A stretch of DNA of 64,000 bases, from assembly GCA_002356455.1 (NCBI GenBank), contig AP017968.1:682001-746000 (forward strand). The letters are read 5' to 3'. This stretch comes from Fusobacterium varium (GTDB taxonomy: Bacteria; Fusobacteriota; Fusobacteriia; Fusobacteriales; Fusobacteriaceae). Shown piece after piece: positions 4,090 to 38,226 of this stretch. The notes under the pieces were generated by a model that saw only the letters and a list, made by a program, of their open reading frames with translations, was not told the origin of the DNA and ran no database searches. A program made the translations under genes and the position numbers. The stretch's first letter is position 1; every line of letters begins with the position of its first letter.

Positions 4090-5527
4090 TTTCTTAGGAA
4101 ATTATAATTTGATAAATTTGTTGAAAAAATAAAAAATATTAATTATTTTGTATTCATATTAGATATATTAATTGAATAAGATTAAAATTGACAGCACAAA
4201 ACAGCTGATTGTTAATCAGCTGTTTAGCGATATTCTTTCCAGCAAATGGAGCCTGTATGTATATTAAAATATGATATTTTTTTAACTTTCATTCTGGCAT
4301 TACATTTAAAACAATAAAAAGGATTTACTCCAAAAGCTTTCCATATTTCAAGTTGATAAAAAGTAGAATTGGAATATTTAGAGACATATTTTCTCATGAA
4401 TTTCATGATATTTTTAAGTTCTGATTTAATATTTCTAGAATAGATTCCAAAGCGCCTAATCATTTTGAAATGTTTAGGGGGAATGTGAATAATTAATTTA
4501 GAAAGAAATGTTTCTGCATCTAAAGTAAGCTCAATTCTTTGTTTATCATCAGCAAGACTTTCATAATAGAAAGTAACCTTATTATCATAGAAATCAATAA
4601 TTTTATATTCTGCGATAGGAGCTCTTGACAGGTATCTGCCAATATATTTAATTGCATAAATATTATTATTTAAATCATTTTTTGCAACATTGAAAAAGAA
4701 TCTTGTATTTTTGCGATAAAGGGAGTTAGCAGCAGCATAAGCTTTAGCTTTAATTTCAGGCTTGTCATAATTTCCAGATTTAACAATATCAATAACCATT
4801 TTTTTCCATTGTCCAGCAATGGAATTGACATGAAAATATTTTTTTTCAAGAAATTGGTAGTTTTTATTGAATCCACCTAAAGTAACAATAGCATGAATAT
4901 GAGGATTCCATTTAAGATCGCGTCCAAAGGTATGAATAACAGTAATCAATCCATAATGAATGATATCTGAGTTAGTAAAGTATTTAGAGGAATATTTTGA
5001 AATTTTATGAATTCTTTGATTTTTTGCTTTAATGTTATGAAATTGATATTTAAAAACATCATTAACAGCATAAGCAAGCTTAGTTAAAAGGTCTCTATCA
5101 TAGAAGAAAAACATTCTAAGTTCTTCAGGAATAGTAAAAAGGACACTTCTATGTTTAACATCAATAAGAGAAGTGGAAGTTTTTTCAGTTCAAACAGCAG
5201 AATAACGTTTACCGCAGGAAGGACAAAATCTAGATTTACAAGTAACTTTAATTTTATGCGCCTCATGACAATTAGGGCATTGAAGAGAGAGAAAAGATTT
5301 ATCAATAGAACAGGCTAAGAATTTTTGAATAGTCTGTTTAACATCCTCAAAATGCTCATTTTTAAAATATTTTTTGATTTTACCTAAAAGATTTGTTATA
5401 TTGATTTTAGAGATAATATGTTTGATTTGCATGAATGTCTCCTTTGCATAATTAGGGTGGTAACTATATTATACAAAAAAGAGAGCTGAGTAAAACATTT
5501 TTTTTAAATGTTACTCAGCTTTTTTTA
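4090..5527 (-). mobile_element. IS91-like insertion sequence, copy 1 (1438 bp)
   Basis: Bounds come from comparison with the copy at 20273-21710: both are 1438 bp, about 99.6% identical, and the flanks differ outside these positions. One transposase gene lies on the minus strand. There are no terminal inverted repeats. Instead there is a hairpin near each end: a perfect 10-bp stem at 4201-4223, just after the transposase stop, and a stem of about 15 bp at 5484-5520, followed by seven Ts, just upstream of the gene. Subterminal hairpins suit HUH-type elements that move as single strands. The true ends could be a few bases off because both insertions sit in T-rich sequence. Confidence 0.75.
4224..5432 (-). 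pseudogene. IS91-family transposase with in-frame TGA
   Basis: One continuous minus-strand frame of about 402 codons interrupted by a single TGA at 5190-5192. The N-terminal 80 residues are a zinc-binding domain with two CxxC pairs (CPNC, then CPSC in the SRFCPSCGKRY segment). After the stop, the frame goes on with IDVKHRSVLFTIPEEL, the HUH-like WNPHIHAIVT motif typical of IS91/IS801 transposases, and a C-terminal CFKC pair. In related proteins the stop position appears to be a tryptophan (TGG to TGA); this is from memory. ATG 5114 could restart translation, giving a 296-residue protein without the zinc domain. The minus-strand TATAAT for this copy lies just upstream in the terminal segment. 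Confidence 0.8.
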
Positions 5528-5847: not shown

Positions 5848-6024
5848 GTTCTCTTTAATGTATAAAGGCGAACTTTTACATGTTTTAACTTTATCAATTA
5901 TAATCTCTAAAATTGATAAAGTCAAGATAAAAATATTTTTAGAAAAAACATCCTTAAAAAATGACCCCCTGTAAATAAAGTAATTACGACTATTTTATGT
6001 TCGCTTTTATACATATAAGAGAAC
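5848..6024. promoter_or_regulatory. Putative invertible promoter element A (inverton), OFF orientation
   Basis: A 177-bp segment bounded by 26-bp inverted repeats (5848-5873 and 5999-6024), identical at 23 of 26 positions; outer ends GTTCTC...GAGAAC, inner ends GCGAAC/GTTCGC. The inside holds one good sigma-70 promoter, which here points left, away from the autotransporter that starts 87 bp beyond the right repeat. A second element of 179 bp at 37361-37539 has the same architecture and related internal sequence in the opposite orientation. This is the layout of phase-variable invertible promoters. No recombinase gene is visible in the window, so any inversion would act in trans. A MITE-like repeat is the main alternative. 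Confidence 0.65.
5897..5925 (-). promoter_or_regulatory. Sigma-70 promoter inside inverton A
   Basis: On the minus strand TTGACT (5925-5920), 17-base spacer, TATAAT (5902-5897). It directs transcription leftward, away from the autotransporter gene. After inversion it would read into it. Confidence 0.65.
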
Positions 6025-6111: not shown

Positions 6112-9100
6112 ATGATTAAAGAAATGGAGAAAGCTTTAAAAAGATATCTCAAGGGAAAGAATAGAATAACAATGGGAGTGGTAGTAGCTTTTTTACTGGG
6201 AAGCAGTTTTGCATTTGGAGATGTTACAATAAAATATGATACTGCAGTTTCAACTCTTATTGTACAAGATGATTCAGGAACTAATATAGGAACAGTAACA
6301 AAAAATTCTGCTGATGAATTTACCTGGACATTACCAGAAGGAGCAAATGTAACTGAAACTGTAAAAATAGATAATACAGTAAATGCAAATAATATTAAAG
6401 TAAATATAGTGAATAATGGAAATATAAGTGGGAGCAGTACTGGTGGAGATAAATCAGGAAATGGAATTTATTATAATTCTTATTTTAATGGAGCTAGTAC
6501 AATAGGAAATATAACAAATAGTGGAACTATCAATGGTAGTACTACTGGTAGTGGATTTAATTCAGGAAATGGAATATATTCTTATTCTACGAATGGAGCT
6601 AGTACAATAGGAAATATAATAAATAATGGAGATATCAATGGTAGTACTACTGGTAATGGATATAGTTCAGGAAATGGAATATATTCTTATTCTAATGGAG
6701 CTAGTACAATAGGAGATATAACAAATAGTGGAACTATAAGTGGCAGTACTACTGGCAGTGGAAATTATTCAGGAAATGGGATTTATTCTACGACTGAAGC
6801 TAGTACAATAGGAGATATAACAAATAGTGGAACTATAAGTGGCAGTACTACTGGCAGTGGAAATTATTCAGGAAATGGGCTTTATTCTACGAATGGAGCT
6901 GGTACAATTGGAGCTAGTACAATAGGAGATATAACAAATAGTGGAAGTATAAGAGGAAACAGTACTGGCGGAGATAAATCAGGAAATGGAATATATTCTT
7001 ATTCTGAGGCTGGAGCTAGTACAATAGGAAATATAACAAATAGTGGAACTATCAATGGTAGTACTACTGGTAGTGGATCTAATTCAGGAAATGGAATATT
7101 TTCTTATTCTTATTCTAATGGAGCTAGTACAATAGGGGATATAACAAATAGTGGAATTATAACTGGTAGTGGATCTAATTCAGGAAATGGAATTTATTCT
7201 CTTTCTTCTAATGGTCCAGCAATAATAGAATCAATTTCAAATTATGGTGTTATAATGGGAAGCGACAATGGAATATATATTAAAGGAGATTCTAGTTCAA
7301 AGATTAATGGATATAGCAATTATGGACTTGTAATAGGACAGACACCAGTCAAAATTGAAGGTGGCGGAACAGTAAACACTCTAAAAGAACAGGGAATGGC
7401 TATAACTCTTGATGGAAGTGGAGATATCACTTCTATTGTTTCAGGAACTGGAGGAAGTACAGGAATATATTCTATAGTGAATACTCAATTAAGAGATAAT
7501 TCAGGAAGCGCAGTATCATCTGGTGCAGTAGATTCATATGATGTATATACAAGCGACCAAAGTATTTCAGATACTATCATCAATGGTGCTGGTGTAAATA
7601 GTGGAACAGTGACAATAGAAGCAGATAAGAATTTCTCACTTAATGGTGGAGTTGTCAATGCCTATAAAACTGCTGTTACAGTTAAAGATGGAGCTTCATT
7701 TACTGGTACAGATGTAACAATCAATGGTGGGGGCTTAGATAGAACTACTCCTGTTATTTCTGGAGATTCAGGAGCTAATACAGTAAATATATCTGGAAAT
7801 TCTTTTATCAATGGAAAAGTTGATTTAGGAGATGGAGATGATATTTTATTTATTGGAAATTCCACTCAAATCAATGGAGATATAGACGGTGGAACAGGTA
7901 ATGGGGATATTCTTAATTTTGGTTCAGCCGTTTCCAGAGCAGTGGGAAATGATAATATAAATCTTTTCCATAAAATATCAAATGTGGAAGAGATAAATAT
8001 AAATCAGAAAGTAACTGCATTTGAAACTTCTGAAATTACAGAAGCAAAAGATATTAATATTGGTAAAAATGGGGAGTTTGTATTAAGAATAGATACAAGC
8101 AAAGTGGACAACACAAGTGGGACAGGTAAAATTACAGGTCATGCACTTTATGGGAATATAGGAACAATATCTTCAACAGGAGGAAAATTATTATTTGCTC
8201 TTAATGGAGCAGGAAATGAAAGTATAATAAGTTTTGGAAAGACTGAGCTGGATAGTGATAGTTTTGTAGTAGGCAGTGAAGGAACATATCAGGAAGATGT
8301 AACTTTAGATACAACATCACTGCTTCACTCAGTAGGAAAAATAGATTTATCAAACAATGAAATAAAAATTACAGCTAAAGTTAATCTGCCTAAAAGACCT
8401 TCAAGTGATGTAGCATATGAAAAATTAAATAAAATATATCATGGTATTCTTTCGGTAGATAAATTAGAAAACTTTAATGTAGATACTGATGAAAAATTCT
8501 CATCTTTTATGGGATACTTAAATGATATCTATGCAGGAAATCCATACTCATATTCTTCTGAATTATCAAGAAAATCAATGGGAATGTTCAGAGATATAGT
8601 TACTGAAAATTCATTTAAAGCAGATACAGGAAAATGGATGATATATGGCGGACTTACTCATATAGATGGAGGAACTAAAGATACATATTATGGAAAGGGA
8701 TACTATACTTATGATATAGGAAGTTCTGATATAGATTCTGATACAAAAATCACAGGAGCATATATGCTTGGAGAGTATGGAATATCTGATGGCTTTAAAG
8801 CTGGAGTAGCAGTTGGAGGAAACAAGCTTAAATCTGACTTGTCTAATGGCTCAAAGGTTGATGGAGATGCGCTGTATATTGGAGGATATGCTAAGAAGTA
8901 TCTTGGAAATCTAAAAGTAACAGCAGGAATGGGATTTCAATATGGAGATTATGATGCTGATAGATTAGCCATAAATAATGTGGCTTCTGATAAAGCAGAA
9001 CCAGTAATGAAATATTCAGATAATTATAATGATATATCTTATGACATCTATTTAAATGAAAGATATTCTCATAATATTGGAGATAATCTATACTTAGAGC

Positions 9101-9540
9101 CTTACGGAACACTGTCATATACATATGTAAAACAGGATGGAGCAGATGAGGGAAATAAAACTTTGGCAATAGAAACAGATTCAAAATCATTTGATTATAC
9201 ATCAGCTAAAGTGGGATTAGACCTTAAAAAAGTGATACCACATAAAAAAGGAAAGAGTACATTATCAGTTGGGGCAAGCTATACAAGACTGCTTAATGGC
9301 GCAGATGAAGAATATATCACAGGAAGATTTAAAGGTGGAAGCGACTTTGATATATTAGTTGCCCACAAGAATGAACATAGCTTAGGATTGAATGTTAAAT
9401 ATGCACTTGAATTGGAAAATGGAATCTTGTTTGATGTAAAAGGAACTTACTCTGTAGAAAGAGATTCACATAATCAATCTGGAAAGAATAAGACAAAAGG
9501 TGAATGGATAGTAGGAACAGGATTGGGTTATAAGTTCTAA
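6112..9540 (+). CDS. Autotransporter adhesin-like protein (type V secretion)
   Basis: 1142 residues. The N-terminus has a charged extension (MIKEMEKALKRYLKGKNR) before a hydrophobic signal core ending SSFAFG, typical of fusobacterial autotransporters. Residues about 105-370 are a low-complexity passenger of repeated units with NSGTI, GSTTGSG, SGNGIYS and GASTIGD, expected to form a beta-helix. The last ~290 residues form a beta-barrel domain with alternating residues and end in ...GYKF, the terminal Phe of outer-membrane barrels. The ATG follows AAGGGGGAGAGG. The gene lies right behind inverton A, and its 3' flank is interrupted by an IS 15 bp after the stop, so its own terminator is lost. 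Ligand unknown; adhesion is inferred from the family. Confidence 0.92.
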   Translation: MIKEMEKALKRYLKGKNRITMGVVVAFLLGSSFAFGDVTIKYDTAVSTLIVQDDSGTNIGTVTKNSADEFTWTLPEGANVTETVKIDNTVNANNIKVNIVNNGNISGSSTGGDKSGNGIYYNSYFNGASTIGNITNSGTINGSTTGSGFNSGNGIYSYSTNGASTIGNIINNGDINGSTTGNGYSSGNGIYSYSNGASTIGDITNSGTISGSTTGSGNYSGNGIYSTTEASTIGDITNSGTISGSTTGSGNYSGNGLYSTNGAGTIGASTIGDITNSGSIRGNSTGGDKSGNGIYSYSEAGASTIGNITNSGTINGSTTGSGSNSGNGIFSYSYSNGASTIGDITNSGIITGSGSNSGNGIYSLSSNGPAIIESISNYGVIMGSDNGIYIKGDSSSKINGYSNYGLVIGQTPVKIEGGGTVNTLKEQGMAITLDGSGDITSIVSGTGGSTGIYSIVNTQLRDNSGSAVSSGAVDSYDVYTSDQSISDTIINGAGVNSGTVTIEADKNFSLNGGVVNAYKTAVTVKDGASFTGTDVTINGGGLDRTTPVISGDSGANTVNISGNSFINGKVDLGDGDDILFIGNSTQINGDIDGGTGNGDILNFGSAVSRAVGNDNINLFHKISNVEEININQKVTAFETSEITEAKDINIGKNGEFVLRIDTSKVDNTSGTGKITGHALYGNIGTISSTGGKLLFALNGAGNESIISFGKTELDSDSFVVGSEGTYQEDVTLDTTSLLHSVGKIDLSNNEIKITAKVNLPKRPSSDVAYEKLNKIYHGILSVDKLENFNVDTDEKFSSFMGYLNDIYAGNPYSYSSELSRKSMGMFRDIVTENSFKADTGKWMIYGGLTHIDGGTKDTYYGKGYYTYDIGSSDIDSDTKITGAYMLGEYGISDGFKAGVAVGGNKLKSDLSNGSKVDGDALYIGGYAKKYLGNLKVTAGMGFQYGDYDADRLAINNVASDKAEPVMKYSDNYNDISYDIYLNERYSHNIGDNLYLEPYGTLSYTYVKQDGADEGNKTLAIETDSKSFDYTSAKVGLDLKKVIPHKKGKSTLSVGASYTRLLNGADEEYITGRFKGGSDFDILVAHKNEHSLGLNVKYALELENGILFDVKGTYSVERDSHNQSGKNKTKGEWIVGTGLGYKF
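6430..7200 (+). repeat. Intragenic repeats of the autotransporter passenger
   Basis: About eight imperfect units of roughly 33-36 codons. Two neighbouring units (starting near 6700 and 6799, period 99 bp) are identical at DNA level for about 80 bp. The unit reads GASTIGDITNSG-(TI)-SGSTTGSG-SGNGIYS. All length changes keep the frame, so recombination could vary passenger length. Confidence 0.85.
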
Positions 9541-9692: not shown

Positions 9693-11171
9693 ATGCAAAA
9701 ACCAACTAATAATAACATTTTTTTTCAATTAAATCAACCTAAACTTTTTAACTTTTTACAATATGAAATTTCTGATAATGATCCTGTAAGAAAACTTAGC
9801 TCAATATTGGAGGGATTAGATTTTAGTAGTTTAATGCAAGTATTTTCTTACAAAACAAAGGTACATCCTATCAGAATGTTTTCTATCATTGTTTATGCCT
9901 ATTCGCGCAATTTAACTTCTACTAGAGATATAGAAATGGCTTGCCATGAAAATATTAAATTTAGGTTTCTTTTACAAGATTCTAAAATTCCTGATCACTC
10001 TACTATTTCTAGATTCTTAGTAAAAACTGAAGATATTCTTCCAGATCTATTTGAACAATTCGTTGAAAAAATTTTTGAAATGGAAAATATTTCCACTGAA
10101 ACAATATATATTGATGGCACTAAAATTGAAGCATATGCTAATAAATATACATTTGTTTGGAAAAAATCTATTGAGAAATATAGAACTAGATTAGATGAAA
10201 AAATTCTTGAATTAATTTCAAATTTTAATGATGATTTCAACTTACAATATGACAACTTCCTTGAAATATATTCATATCTTTCTAATTTGAATTTTCAAAT
10301 AGTCAAAGGTAGAGGAAAGAGAAAATCTAAAGAGCAAAAGTATTTAGAATTATGCGCAGAATACTTAGAAAAGTATCAAAAATATTCTAATCATTTTAAA
10401 AATCTTAATGGTAGAAATAGCTATTCAAAAACTGATATAGATGCTACTTTTATGAGAATGAAAGATGACCATATGAGAAATGGTCAATTAAAACCTGGAT
10501 ATAATCTACAAATAGGAGTGATTAGTGAATATATTTCTTCATATGAAATTTTTTCTAACCCTTCTGATTCTAAAACTTTGATTCCATTTTTAGAGAAAAT
10601 TTCATCTCAAAATTTAGAAATTAAAAATATTGTAGCTGATGCAGGATATGAAAGTATTTCAAATTATGAATATTTGGAAAAAATGGACTATACTTCATAC
10701 ATAAAACCAATATATTTTGAAAAATCTAAAATCAGAAAGTTTAAAAATGATTTAAACAGAGTAGAAAATTTAATATATAATCATTCTGAAAATAAGCTAT
10801 TTAGAAAAGATGGATTAGAATTAGAATTTCTATACTCTAACAAAAATAATACAGTTCAATATTTTTGGAATCCTGAAACTAACAAAAAAATTAAGTACAA
10901 TGCGAGATTTAGAATTTTATCAAATAAATCAAAAGAGAATGTATCAAGCAATTATGGAAAACAATTAAGAATGAACAGAAGTATTCAAGTAGAAGGTGCT
11001 TTTGCAGTTTTGAAAGAAGATATGAAATTGCGAAAATTAAAAGTTCGAAGTAAAAAAAGTGTTTTAAGAGAAATATGTTTGTTTTGTATCGCTTACAACT
11101 TCAACAGATATCTAAGCAGAAATATAAATAATCGCTTAGGAACAACACTTCACTCATTAAAAGTAGCTTAG
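9693..11171 (+). CDS. IS1182-family DDE transposase
   Basis: 492 residues, full length. The N-terminal DUF772-like part has HPIRMFSIIVYAYSRN. The DDE catalytic residues are seen in YIDGTKIEA (first Asp), VADAGYES (second Asp) and VEGAFAVLKED (Glu). It ends with the usual CIAYNFNRY helix. It catalyses cut-and-paste or replicative movement of the element in the cytosol. The start ATG 9693 lacks a strong ribosome binding site. There is no frameshift or internal stop, so the element may still be active. Confidence 0.93.
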   Translation: MQKPTNNNIFFQLNQPKLFNFLQYEISDNDPVRKLSSILEGLDFSSLMQVFSYKTKVHPIRMFSIIVYAYSRNLTSTRDIEMACHENIKFRFLLQDSKIPDHSTISRFLVKTEDILPDLFEQFVEKIFEMENISTETIYIDGTKIEAYANKYTFVWKKSIEKYRTRLDEKILELISNFNDDFNLQYDNFLEIYSYLSNLNFQIVKGRGKRKSKEQKYLELCAEYLEKYQKYSNHFKNLNGRNSYSKTDIDATFMRMKDDHMRNGQLKPGYNLQIGVISEYISSYEIFSNPSDSKTLIPFLEKISSQNLEIKNIVADAGYESISNYEYLEKMDYTSYIKPIYFEKSKIRKFKNDLNRVENLIYNHSENKLFRKDGLELEFLYSNKNNTVQYFWNPETNKKIKYNARFRILSNKSKENVSSNYGKQLRMNRSIQVEGAFAVLKEDMKLRKLKVRSKKSVLREICLFCIAYNFNRYLSRNINNRLGTTLHSLKVA

Positions 11172-11362: not shown

Positions 11363-11656
11363 ATGACAGAAGGGGAATTTATAAGATTCTATAAAAAGAG
11401 AAATGGACTAAAGAATCAGCAGGAAGTAAAAGAAAAGATAGACTTATTCTGGAATACACTGCTAAAAGTTCTGAATGAAGGGGAAAAGGTAACCTTTAAA
11501 AATTGGGGAACATTTGAAGAAAAAGAGGTAAAACCAAGAAAAATAATGATAACTAAAATAAATAAAACTGGTTATACAAAAGCTAAAAAGAAGATAAGAT
11601 TCAGAGCAGGAGCGGGCTTGCAGGATATAGTAAATGGAGCTGGTACTGATGAATAA
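11363..11656 (+). CDS. HU/IHF-like DNA-binding protein, pair A subunit 1
   Basis: 97 residues aligning over their length with HU/IHF: an N-terminal helical dimerisation part beginning MTEGEFIRFYKKRN, the KVTFKNWGTFE segment (equivalent to the GFGTFEv core of HU) and a beta-arm region ending with KKIRFRAGAGLQD, equivalent to the family's 'FKAGKaLkd'. Such proteins bend DNA as dimers. ATG 11363 follows AGGGGGGAAGCT. The gene overlaps the next HU-like gene by 8 bp, suggesting a heterodimer. It is clearly paralogous to 37632-37928. It lies behind the autotransporter and the IS; no convincing promoter is visible in the 36 bp after the IS, so it may once have been co-transcribed with the autotransporter. 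Confidence 0.85.
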   Translation: MTEGEFIRFYKKRNGLKNQQEVKEKIDLFWNTLLKVLNEGEKVTFKNWGTFEEKEVKPRKIMITKINKTGYTKAKKKIRFRAGAGLQDIVNGAGTDE

Positions 11657-11924
11657 GAGAGAATTAGCAAAAGTATACAGTGAAACAAGTAAAGGGGAAA
11701 TATCAGCAAGAGAAGCGCTGAAAGAAATAGAAGTATTTCTTGAAACAATGCAGGAGGCTTTGGAGAAAAGTCATTCATTGATATTTAGAAATATAGGAAT
11801 ATTTGAAGTGAAGGAAAGAAAAGTAAGAATAATAGCCAATCCTGTGAATAAAGAGCCAATGAAGATTTATCCAAGAAAAACAGTGAAATTCAGAGAATCT
11901 AAAAACATATTTAAAATTGTATAA
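11649..11924 (+). CDS. HU/IHF-like DNA-binding protein, pair A subunit 2
   Basis: 91 residues from ATG 11649, which lies in the tail of the first gene with GGAG nine bases upstream; the frame is open from 11634, but that start is less likely. It shows the HU/IHF fold pattern: MNKRELAKVYSE, helices with EISAREALKEIEVF, LIFRNIGIFEVKERK (matching the GFGTFEVKER core), an INP-like arm tip (IIANPV) and a C-terminal YPRKTVKFRESKN. Its paralogue is 37921-38190. Together with 11363-11656 it probably forms an IHF-like heterodimer. Confidence 0.85.
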   Translation: MNKRELAKVYSETSKGEISAREALKEIEVFLETMQEALEKSHSLIFRNIGIFEVKERKVRIIANPVNKEPMKIYPRKTVKFRESKNIFKIV

Positions 11925-20272: not shown

Positions 20273-21710
20273 TTTCTTAGGAAATTATAATTTGATAAAT
20301 TTGTTGAAAAAATAAAAAATATTAATTATTTTGTATTTATATTAGATATATTAATTGAATAAGATTAAAATTGACAGCACAAAAAAGCTGATTGTTAATC
20401 AGCTGTTTAGCGATATTCTTTCCAGCAAATGGAGCCTGTATGTATATTAAAATATGATATTTTTTTAACTTTCATTCTGGCATTACATTTAAAACAATAA
20501 AAAGGATTTACTCCAAAAGCTTTCCATATTTCAAGTTGATAAAAAGTAGAATTGGAATATTTAGAGACATATTTTCTCATGAATTTCATAATATTTTTAA
20601 GTTCTGATTTAATATTTCTAGAATAGATTCCAAAGCGCCTAATCATTTTGAAATGTTTAGGGGGAATGTGAATAATTAATTTAGAAAGAAATGTTTCTGC
20701 ATCTAAAGTAAGCTCAATTCTTTGTTTATCATCAGCAAGACTTTCATAATAGAAAGTAACCTTATTATCATAGAAATCAATAATTTTATATTCTGCGATA
20801 GGAGCTCTTGACAGGTATCTGCCAATATATTTAATTGCATAAATATTATTATTTAAATCATTTTTTGCAACATTGAAAAAGAATCTTGTATTTTTGCGAT
20901 AAAGGTAGTTAGCAGCAGCATAAGCTTTAGCTTTAATTTCAGGCTTGTCATAATTTCCAGATTTAACAATATCAATAACCATTTTTTTCCATTGTCCAGC
21001 AATGGAATTGACATGAAAATATTTTTTTTCAAGAAATTGGTAGTTTTTATTGAATCCACCTAAAGTAACAATAGCATGAATATGAGGATTCCATTTAAGA
21101 TCGCGTCCAAAGGTATGAATAACAGTAATCAATCCATAATGAATGATATCTGAGTTAGTAAAGTATTTAGAGGAATATTTTGAAATTTTATGAATTCTTT
21201 GATTTTTTGCTTTAATGTTATGAAATTGATATTTAAAAACATCATTAACAGCATAAGCAAGCTTAGTTAAAAGGTCTCTATCATAGAAGAAAAACATTCT
21301 AAGTTCTTCAGGAATAGTAAAAAGGACACTTCTATGTTTAACATCAATAAGAGAAGTGGAAGTTTTTTCAGTTCAAACAGCAGAATAACGTTTACCGCAG
21401 GAAGGACAAAATCTAGATTTACAAGTAACTTTAATTTTATGCGCCTCATGACAATTAGGGCATTGAAGAGAGAGAAAAGATTTATCAATAGAACAGGCTA
21501 AGAATTTTTGAATAGTCTGTTTAACATCCTCAAAATGCTCATTTTTAAAATATTTTTTGATTTTACCTAAAAGATTTGTTATATTGATTTTAGAGATAAT
21601 ATGTTTGATTTGCATGAATGTCTCCTTTGCATAATTAGGGTGGTAACTATAGTATACAAAAAAGAGAGCTGAGTAAAACATTTTTTTTAAATGTTACTCA
21701 GCTTTTTTTA
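20273..21710 (-). mobile_element. IS91-like insertion sequence, copy 2 (1438 bp)
   Basis: Same length and almost the same sequence as 4090-5527. I count about five or six differences, including TATAAT to TATACT in the -10 box ahead of the transposase. The terminal hairpins are present, the left one with a changed base (AAAAAAGCTG for AAAACAGCTG). It is inserted directly after a terminator, as is copy 1. Confidence 0.75.
20407..21615 (-). pseudogene. IS91-family transposase with the same in-frame TGA, copy 2
   Basis: Nearly identical to the first copy: zinc-binding N-terminus, TGA at 21373-21375, then the frame with WNPHIHAIVT and the C-terminal CFKC pair. One residue differs visibly (AAANYLYRK here, AAANSLYRK in copy 1). 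The same nonsense codon in both copies means the inactive or recoded form was itself copied, or the defect spread by gene conversion. Confidence 0.8.
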
Positions 21711-37284: not shown

Positions 37285-37293
37285 TTTAATAAT

Positions 37294-37328
37294 AAAAAAG
37301 CTCACTGATTTAGTCAGTGGGCTTTTTT
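37294..37328 (+). terminator. Terminator after the flavodiiron gene
   Basis: AAAAAAGCTCACTGA / TCAGTGGGCTTTTTT with loop TTTAG; one G-U pair. Confidence 0.88.
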
Positions 37329-37360
37329 ATTAGTTAAAAATAACTATAAAAAAATTAAAA

Positions 37361-37539
37361 GTTCCCTTTTATATAATAAAGCGAATACTTAGAAGGCTAG
37401 ACTCCCTATTTTTATTGAAGGTATTTTTTTAGTTCCCTAAAAACTGAATTGTTTTTTTATCTTGATTTTGTCAATTTTAAAGAGTATAATAGGAAAGAAA
37501 AATATTATAAAAAGTTCGCCTTATTATATAAAAGAGAAC
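37361..37539. promoter_or_regulatory. Putative invertible promoter element B (inverton), ON orientation
   Basis: 179-bp element bounded by 26-bp inverted repeats (37361-37386 and 37514-37539; 23 of 26 match), with the same GTTC...GCGAA/GTTCGC...GAGAAC scheme as element A. The middle of the repeat arms differs from A (TTATTATATAA instead of TTTATACAT), but both arms differ together. The internal promoter reads right, towards the HU/IHF-like pair starting 92 bp after the element. Relative to element A the inside is inverted. Confidence 0.65.
37462..37490 (+). promoter_or_regulatory. Sigma-70 promoter inside inverton B
   Basis: TTGATT (37462-37467), 17-base spacer, TATAAT (37485-37490), facing the HU/IHF-like genes. 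The spacer (TTGTCAATTTTAAAGAG) is recognisably homologous to that of element A. Confidence 0.65.
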
Positions 37540-37631
37540 ATATTTTTAAATGTTTAAAAATATGGTTTTGAGAATTGTTTGTAGATAAAGATATTAATAT
37601 ATGGAAATTTATATAAAACATTGGAGGAAAA

Positions 37632-37928
37632 ATGACAGAAGGGGAATTCATAAAATTTTATAAAAAAAGGAATAAAAATAAAAACCATGAAGAAGTAAAA
37701 GAAGAAATAGATAGATTTTGGGATACACTTTTAAAGGCATTAAATGAAAATGGGGCAGTAACATTTAAAAATTGGGGAACTTTTGAAAAAAAAGTGGTTA
37801 AATCAAGAAAGGTAATAACACCAAAAATAGAAAAAACAATATATACAGAACCTAAAGAGGTAATAAGATTCAAAGCAGGAAAAGGAATGAAAGACTTAAT
37901 GATTAAAGGCAGTGATAGTTATGAATAG
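37632..37928 (+). CDS. HU/IHF-like DNA-binding protein, pair B subunit 1
   Basis: 98 residues, paralogue of 11363-11656 (both begin MTEGEFI.FYKKRN and share VTFKNWGTFE and a C-terminal IRFKAGKG). HU/IHF fold with DNA-wrapping beta arms expected around residues 55-75. GGAGG lies at 37622. Overlaps the next gene by 8 bp, as in pair A. Transcribed from inverton B if that promoter faces right, as it does here. Confidence 0.85.
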   Translation: MTEGEFIKFYKKRNKNKNHEEVKEEIDRFWDTLLKALNENGAVTFKNWGTFEKKVVKSRKVITPKIEKTIYTEPKEVIRFKAGKGMKDLMIKGSDSYE

Positions 37929-38190
37929 AAAAGAATTAGCAAAAATATATAAAGAAGTAAGCAATGGGGAAGTATCTGCAAGAAAAGCAGTAAAAAAAAT
38001 TAATATTTTTCTTGAAACATTACAGGAGGCTTTACAAATAGATGGTACAGTAGTATTCATTAATAGAGGAATATTTGAAATAAAGGAAAGAAACTCAAGG
38101 ATAATATCTAATCCTGTAACAAGAGAACGTATGAATATACACCCTAAAAAAACAGTGAAATTTAGAGTTTCTAAAAATATGAACAATTAA
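37921..38190 (+). CDS. HU/IHF-like DNA-binding protein, pair B subunit 2
   Basis: 89 residues from ATG 37921 (GTG 37912 in frame is possible). Paralogue of 11649-11924: MNRKELAKIYKE, VSARKAVKKINIF, NRGIFEIKER, ISNPVTRERMNIHPKKTVKFR, the last matching the INP-tip arm of IHF. Probably the partner of 37632-37928 in a heterodimer. A terminator follows, so this pair is its own transcription unit. Confidence 0.85.
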   Translation: MNRKELAKIYKEVSNGEVSARKAVKKINIFLETLQEALQIDGTVVFINRGIFEIKERNSRIISNPVTRERMNIHPKKTVKFRVSKNMNN

Positions 38191-38200
38191 TTGAGTGTCT

Positions 38201-38226
38201 GAGATGCATTAAGCATCTCTTTTTTT
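38201..38226 (+). terminator. Terminator after HU/IHF-like pair B
   Basis: GAGATGC / GCATCTC stem, loop ATTAA, then seven Ts. Confidence 0.88.

Follow-up and report, generated by a model that had tools for sequence, protein, structure and literature searches.

The 64,000-nucleotide stretch analysed here, from the chromosome of the gut bacterium Fusobacterium varium Fv113-g1 (contig AP017968.1, positions 682,001 to 746,000; the window) contains a pair of small HU/IHF-like genes preceded by a promoter that lies between two inverted repeats, which raises the question of whether this promoter can be inverted, by which enzyme, and with what effect on the genes behind it. We consider it very probable that this sequence, element B, is a promoter-inversion switch of a tyrosine-recombinase type that belongs to a dispersed family and drives the HU/IHF-like pair. 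The coordinates of the features discussed are collected in Table 1.

Table 1. Features of element B, element A and their target genes (window coordinates).
Feature	Position	Strand	Remarks
Element A, 177 bp, OFF orientation	5848..6024	.	same family as B
Autotransporter gene behind element A	6112..9540	+	PF03797, E 3.7e-24
HU1-HU2 pair downstream of the element A autotransporter	11363..11924	+	DDE transposase gene now lies between
Terminator-like hairpin, end of the gene upstream of element B	37290..37332	.	stable on both strands
Element B, promoter-inversion element, 179 bp, ON orientation	37361..37539 (chromosome 719361-719539)	.	belongs to 92-element family, four genomes
Element B left arm, 26 bp, predicted recombination site	37361..37386	+	core ATATAA at 37371-37376
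Element B promoter TTGATT-17-TATAAT, toward HU pair	37462..37490	+	kept across the element family
Element B right arm, 26 bp, inverted	37514..37539	-	central 6 bp at 37524-37529
HU1, HU/IHF-family protein, 98 aa	37632..37928	+	Pfam PF00216, E 6.3e-14; HU1 clade
HU2, HU/IHF-family protein	37921..38190	+	PF00216, E 1e-15; HU2 clade
Intrinsic terminator 3' of HU2	38201..38226	+	terminator-like hairpin

Element B has the architecture that an initial annotation had given it, with inverted repeats of 26 bp, a total length of 179 bp and a single promoter (TTGATT at 37462-37467, a 17 bp spacer and TATAAT at 37485-37490) that faces the HU/IHF-like genes, the start of HU1 at 37632 being 92 bp from the arm. 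The two arms have 2 mismatches over their first 25 bp and 3 differences over the full 26 bp, all three outside the central 6 bp, and form the sole inverted repeat of such quality in the window; none was found in 20 shuffled windows. Promoter-like matches are not enriched in the AT-rich stretch around element B (6 observed vs 7.5 expected), so that the promoter call alone is not beyond chance; what makes this promoter credible is its conservation across elements. Because the HU pair is enclosed by terminator-like hairpins, the element B promoter is the only evident promoter for HU1-HU2, and the upstream hairpin would be expected also to terminate transcription from element B in the OFF orientation. 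Rfam gave no match near the element.

The initial annotation had regarded element B as a second copy, inverted in its interior, of a switch found elsewhere in the window (element A). Aligned in the inverted register, the interiors of A and B score 42.5, compared with a maximum of 34 among 2000 shuffles; the same-sense score is only 21. Since the inverted-register score lies above all shuffles, the two elements are homologous, rather than alike by chance as the annotation had allowed they might prove, and stand in opposite orientation relative to their genes. The description of A as built like B holds for family and homology, though not for length, which is 177 and not 179 bp; likewise, B belongs to the same family as A but to a subclass of its own (core RTATAA, HU pair alone). 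Nor is the HU pair, confirmed at B, unique to it, as such pairs lie behind many switched autotransporters at one-operon distance, including the autotransporter of element A. The gene that interrupts the latter operon, a DDE transposase gene at 9693-11171, is probably the IS5/IS1182-family ISFv2 of the strain. Two near-identical Y2_Tnp (IS91-type) transposase genes are present at 4224-5114 and 20407-21297, and 47 copies of ISFv1 are reported in Fv113-g1 (PMC5720691).

We searched the strain's own genome and those of relatives for the arm, leaving the central bases out of account when arms were paired. The genome-wide collection of elements and downstream genes that the initial annotation had suggested thereby came to 92 elements in four related genomes (Fv113-g1, or G000, and G008, G009 and G010), at least 24 of these in Fv113-g1. 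Barring stray single matches, none of the other 92 Fusobacteriales genomes searched contains the arm pattern. The elements precede genes for autotransporters, outer-membrane beta-barrel proteins, sugar and glycosyl transferases, a GGDEF protein and HU pairs; the family is dispersed and, judged by these targets, predicted to control mostly autotransporters, in many cases followed by an HU pair, and other surface genes. Scans of GTDB genomes and of viral contigs for the arm pattern gave only 2 matches each. Of these, one contig classed as viral (IMG/VR; L226, 3605-3798) carries a real element together with the start of an autotransporter-like gene, with the core ATATAC in both arms and the orientation of its G008 relatives, and a gut MAG contig (L225, 2109-2134) carries a similar arm beside the apparent end of a large serine recombinase gene; from these two cases, mobile elements may carry or target the switches. 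At three Fv113-g1 loci (L219, 3940319; L044, 134442; L063, 3713345), one arm is intact and the ends of the other have decayed, with the core kept.

The arms are informative about the type of recombination. Arm columns 11-16 are identical within 91 of the 92 elements, whereas random pairing would give 21.4 (at most 36 in 5000 trials), and the nine flanking columns match in only 11 elements (7.3 expected). Five of the six core columns vary between elements, as illustrated by ATATAA in both arms of B and ATGTAT in A. The annotated observation that arm centres differ between A and B and yet agree within each element thus extends to the family, but the agreement does not maintain pairing or dyad symmetry: only 1/92 cores is palindromic, and asymmetric cores are held in exact inverted relation, as identical 6-bp overlaps. 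A core that is identical in both arms while the flanks are free to differ implies that a central 6-bp zone must match and that the binding regions may drift. Inverted repeats around a promoter upstream of the target gene, together with an identical overlap within the 6-8 bp range, are what a tyrosine-recombinase switch presents, and comparison across the family identifies the 6-bp core as the predicted strand-exchange region of such an enzyme, unlike the 2-bp overlap of serine invertases. The sole element with unlike cores, G010_1564473 (L202, G010:C1:1564473-1564649; ATACAT and ATCTAT), is predicted to be locked; its neighbours include elements of each of its two core types. In an informal look, about 10 of 11 pairs of neighbouring switches had different cores, compared with roughly 75% expected, which is not significant.

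Evidence for inversion itself comes from relatives of element B. At the paralogous loci G008_287995 and G008_912837 the flanks are collinear (141/160), and flipping one of the two 219-bp elements raises their identity from 124/207 to 212/219 positions (97%); G008_912837 is also flipped relative to its relatives in G009 and G010. Inversion is likewise seen for G008_2099442 vs 2279891 and G009_958543 vs other autotransporter elements. The orientation variation that the initial annotation had asked for in related genomes is thus seen among family members and not at B: no flipped copy of B was found, and G000 and G009, the two genomes that retain the locus, carry it in the same orientation. Comparative alignment therefore demonstrates inversion for relatives, from which we infer that B is invertible too. 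Orientation is nearly uniform by class: autotransporter-linked elements, likely ones included, are OFF in 46/47 cases, and the B subclass is ON in all six copies over the four genomes. Such uniformity can mean a strong bias or, for B, a slow or locked switch.

Which enzyme might act on these sites? The Fv113-g1 genome has thirteen tyrosine-recombinase matches. One protein, R198 (198 aa), is encoded twice on the chromosome, by identical genes at 3156432 and 3237238, of which the former lies about 3.5 kb from an element. Orthologues 80-90% identical to R198 are found in exactly the four element-bearing genomes, and the other eight Fusobacterium genomes hold no relative above 51% identity. The single intact copy in G010 indicates that one is enough, and in G009 the gene follows an HU pair at a short distance. 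R198 has little beyond a catalytic domain, is of FimB/FimE size and aligns around the conserved H-x-LR and H...Y residues, its similarity to these proteins being remote (BLASTP E 2e-4 to FimB and 1e-3 to FimE). R198 is likely the enzyme that acts on the elements, a co-occurrence argument drawn from one clade and confounded by ancestry. A tyrosine recombinase of 173-191 aa adjoins a canonical HU gene in 10/12 Fusobacterium genomes, switch-less ones included (G000, 1916444-1917369; gap of 116-191 bp between domain matches), possibly as a genus-wide operon.

The proteins encoded behind element B are members of the HU/IHF family, with Bac_DNA_binding domains at 52.4 and 58.1 bits (curated cut-off 22.4), and HU2 is similar to solved HU and IHF structures. 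Both fall below the NCBIfam IHF alpha/beta equivalog cut-offs (38.4 bits or less vs 111-120), and by these profile scores they are divergent HU/IHF members, not IHF proper. The genes overlap, the ATG of HU2 (37921) covering the HU1 stop codon; the ORF list had placed the start at an earlier GTG (37912). HU-family genes number 58, 55, 56 and 48 in the four element-bearing genomes, and 4, 4, 4, 4, 4, 4, 7 and 15 in the other eight Fusobacterium genomes. In a tree, HU1 and HU2 sequences fall into two distinct groups (109/109), with low branch support for the split (0.35), and 96 of 107 HU genes lie near a partner of the other type; this separation and adjacency suggest that the pairs form IHF-like heterodimers. 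No relative of the HU1 of element B was found in the plasmids, phages or viral contigs searched.

Taken together, these observations point to the following mechanism. R198 most likely exchanges strands in the 6-bp core that both 26-bp arms share; at element B, this would invert the intervening 127 bp. As it now stands (ON), the promoter would drive a terminator-bounded unit of two genes that encode an HU/IHF-like heterodimer; once turned OFF, it would face the terminator-like hairpin, leaving the HU pair without a promoter. The HU pair probably assists the switches, or the promoters on them, by bending DNA. A bolder extension, which we hold only tentatively, is that the inversion bias of every switch is set by an IHF-like heterodimer whose genes lie behind that switch's own promoter, and that stand-alone HU switches act in trans. 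Autotransporter-HU operons would then make the factor only when ON and hence return to OFF (46/47), switches such as B, kept ON, would supply a master factor in trans to the others, and the different 6-bp cores would prevent recombination between switches. If so, a network of phase-variable DNA-bending proteins would govern DNA inversion itself.

Other readings of the same sequences have to be weighed against promoter inversion by a tyrosine recombinase. Because the arms are imperfect palindromes, and their 26-bp length and dyad-like form resemble Hin-type sites, one might suppose a Hin/Gin-type serine invertase acting at a central 2-bp overlap; however, the co-varying zone is 6 bp and not 2, columns 11 and 16 show 0 within-element mismatches vs 22 and 36 expected, and no small serine invertase of the Hin/Gin/Mpi kind is common to the four genomes, three of which have only large serine recombinases (456-504 aa), which makes such an enzyme very unlikely. 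Fixed operator sites for the HU pair or another regulator, flanking a promoter that does not invert, would account for the near-constant orientation of each class, with matched centres reflecting binding specificity. Operators would hardly be expected to keep asymmetric cores exactly inverted, though, and in several relatives the limits of the flipped stretch coincide exactly with the arms; we regard this explanation as improbable. Still harder to accept are miniature inverted-repeat transposable elements that carry a promoter by chance: the elements are multicopy, with 26-bp terminal inverted repeats and without coding capacity, but most lie upstream of surface-protein or HU genes, core identity holds within and not between elements, and no target duplication was seen by eye beside A or B.

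A more serious alternative, though one that we doubt, is that element B was formerly invertible but has in effect become fixed in the ON state, with constitutive expression of the HU pair. The 6/6 ON copies of its subclass are what this predicts. In a locked element, however, one would expect the arms to degenerate, a fate seen in at least three further Fv113-g1 elements, and the 6-bp core is still matched in B and its five relatives despite diverged surroundings.

Promoter inversion of this kind has well-known counterparts. The fimS/FimB/FimE/IHF system of Escherichia coli likewise combines a promoter-bearing invertible element, tyrosine recombinases of 198-200 aa and an IHF-family protein in the switch; in F. 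varium, by contrast, two dozen sites share a single repeat family, the HU/IHF-like genes are themselves located behind switches, and R198 is only remotely similar to FimB/FimE. Many dispersed invertible promoters with related repeats, as in F. varium, also occur ahead of surface and signalling genes in Bacteroides fragilis, whose capsule switches use the serine invertase Mpi, and in Clostridioides difficile (RecV); we know of no expansion of HU/IHF-like genes in either system. C. difficile pdcB and pdcC are promoter-inversion switches (PMC11868660). In the ipuS-ipuR-upaE locus of uropathogenic E. coli, a 260-bp invertible promoter turned by tyrosine recombinases, which act on several switches, precedes an operon of a regulator and an autotransporter (PMC6083910). 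The likeness to F. varium lies in an invertible promoter driving genes for a DNA-binding protein and an autotransporter; 7-bp repeats, a LuxR-type regulator in place of an HU pair, a single switch and adjacent recombinase genes are ipuS's own. Invertible promoters in Fusobacterium are not described in the literature searched, and we came across no account of such a switch for the phylum, though the computed lists of a large 2019 inverton survey may include these elements. Whereas promoter inversion is of a known kind, a dispersed switch family coupled to dozens of IHF-like pairs thus appears undescribed.

Fv113-g1 is known for its 44 autotransporters, and RNA-seq of the strain, including D-MEM-induced autotransporters, has been published (PMC5720691). 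If our reading is right, much of this adhesin repertoire would be phase-variable and kept OFF when the strain is cultured, a point of relevance to work on expression and antigens. Phase-variable chromosome architecture would become directly testable in a bacterium that has about 50 HU/IHF-like genes, many of them preceded by invertible promoters, and the 92 natural sites read out the 6-bp overlap cleanly from sequence alone.

The locus of element B is itself variable. G009 has an additional switched autotransporter immediately upstream of B. G010 carries a scar (L217, G010:C1:2328860-2329012) left by a deletion from within the left arm to within HU2 that took with it the greater part of element B and the HU pair. 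The scar fuses GTTCCCTTT of the left arm to AACAAGAGAA of HU2, two half-site-like stretches, and was perhaps made by a recombinase.
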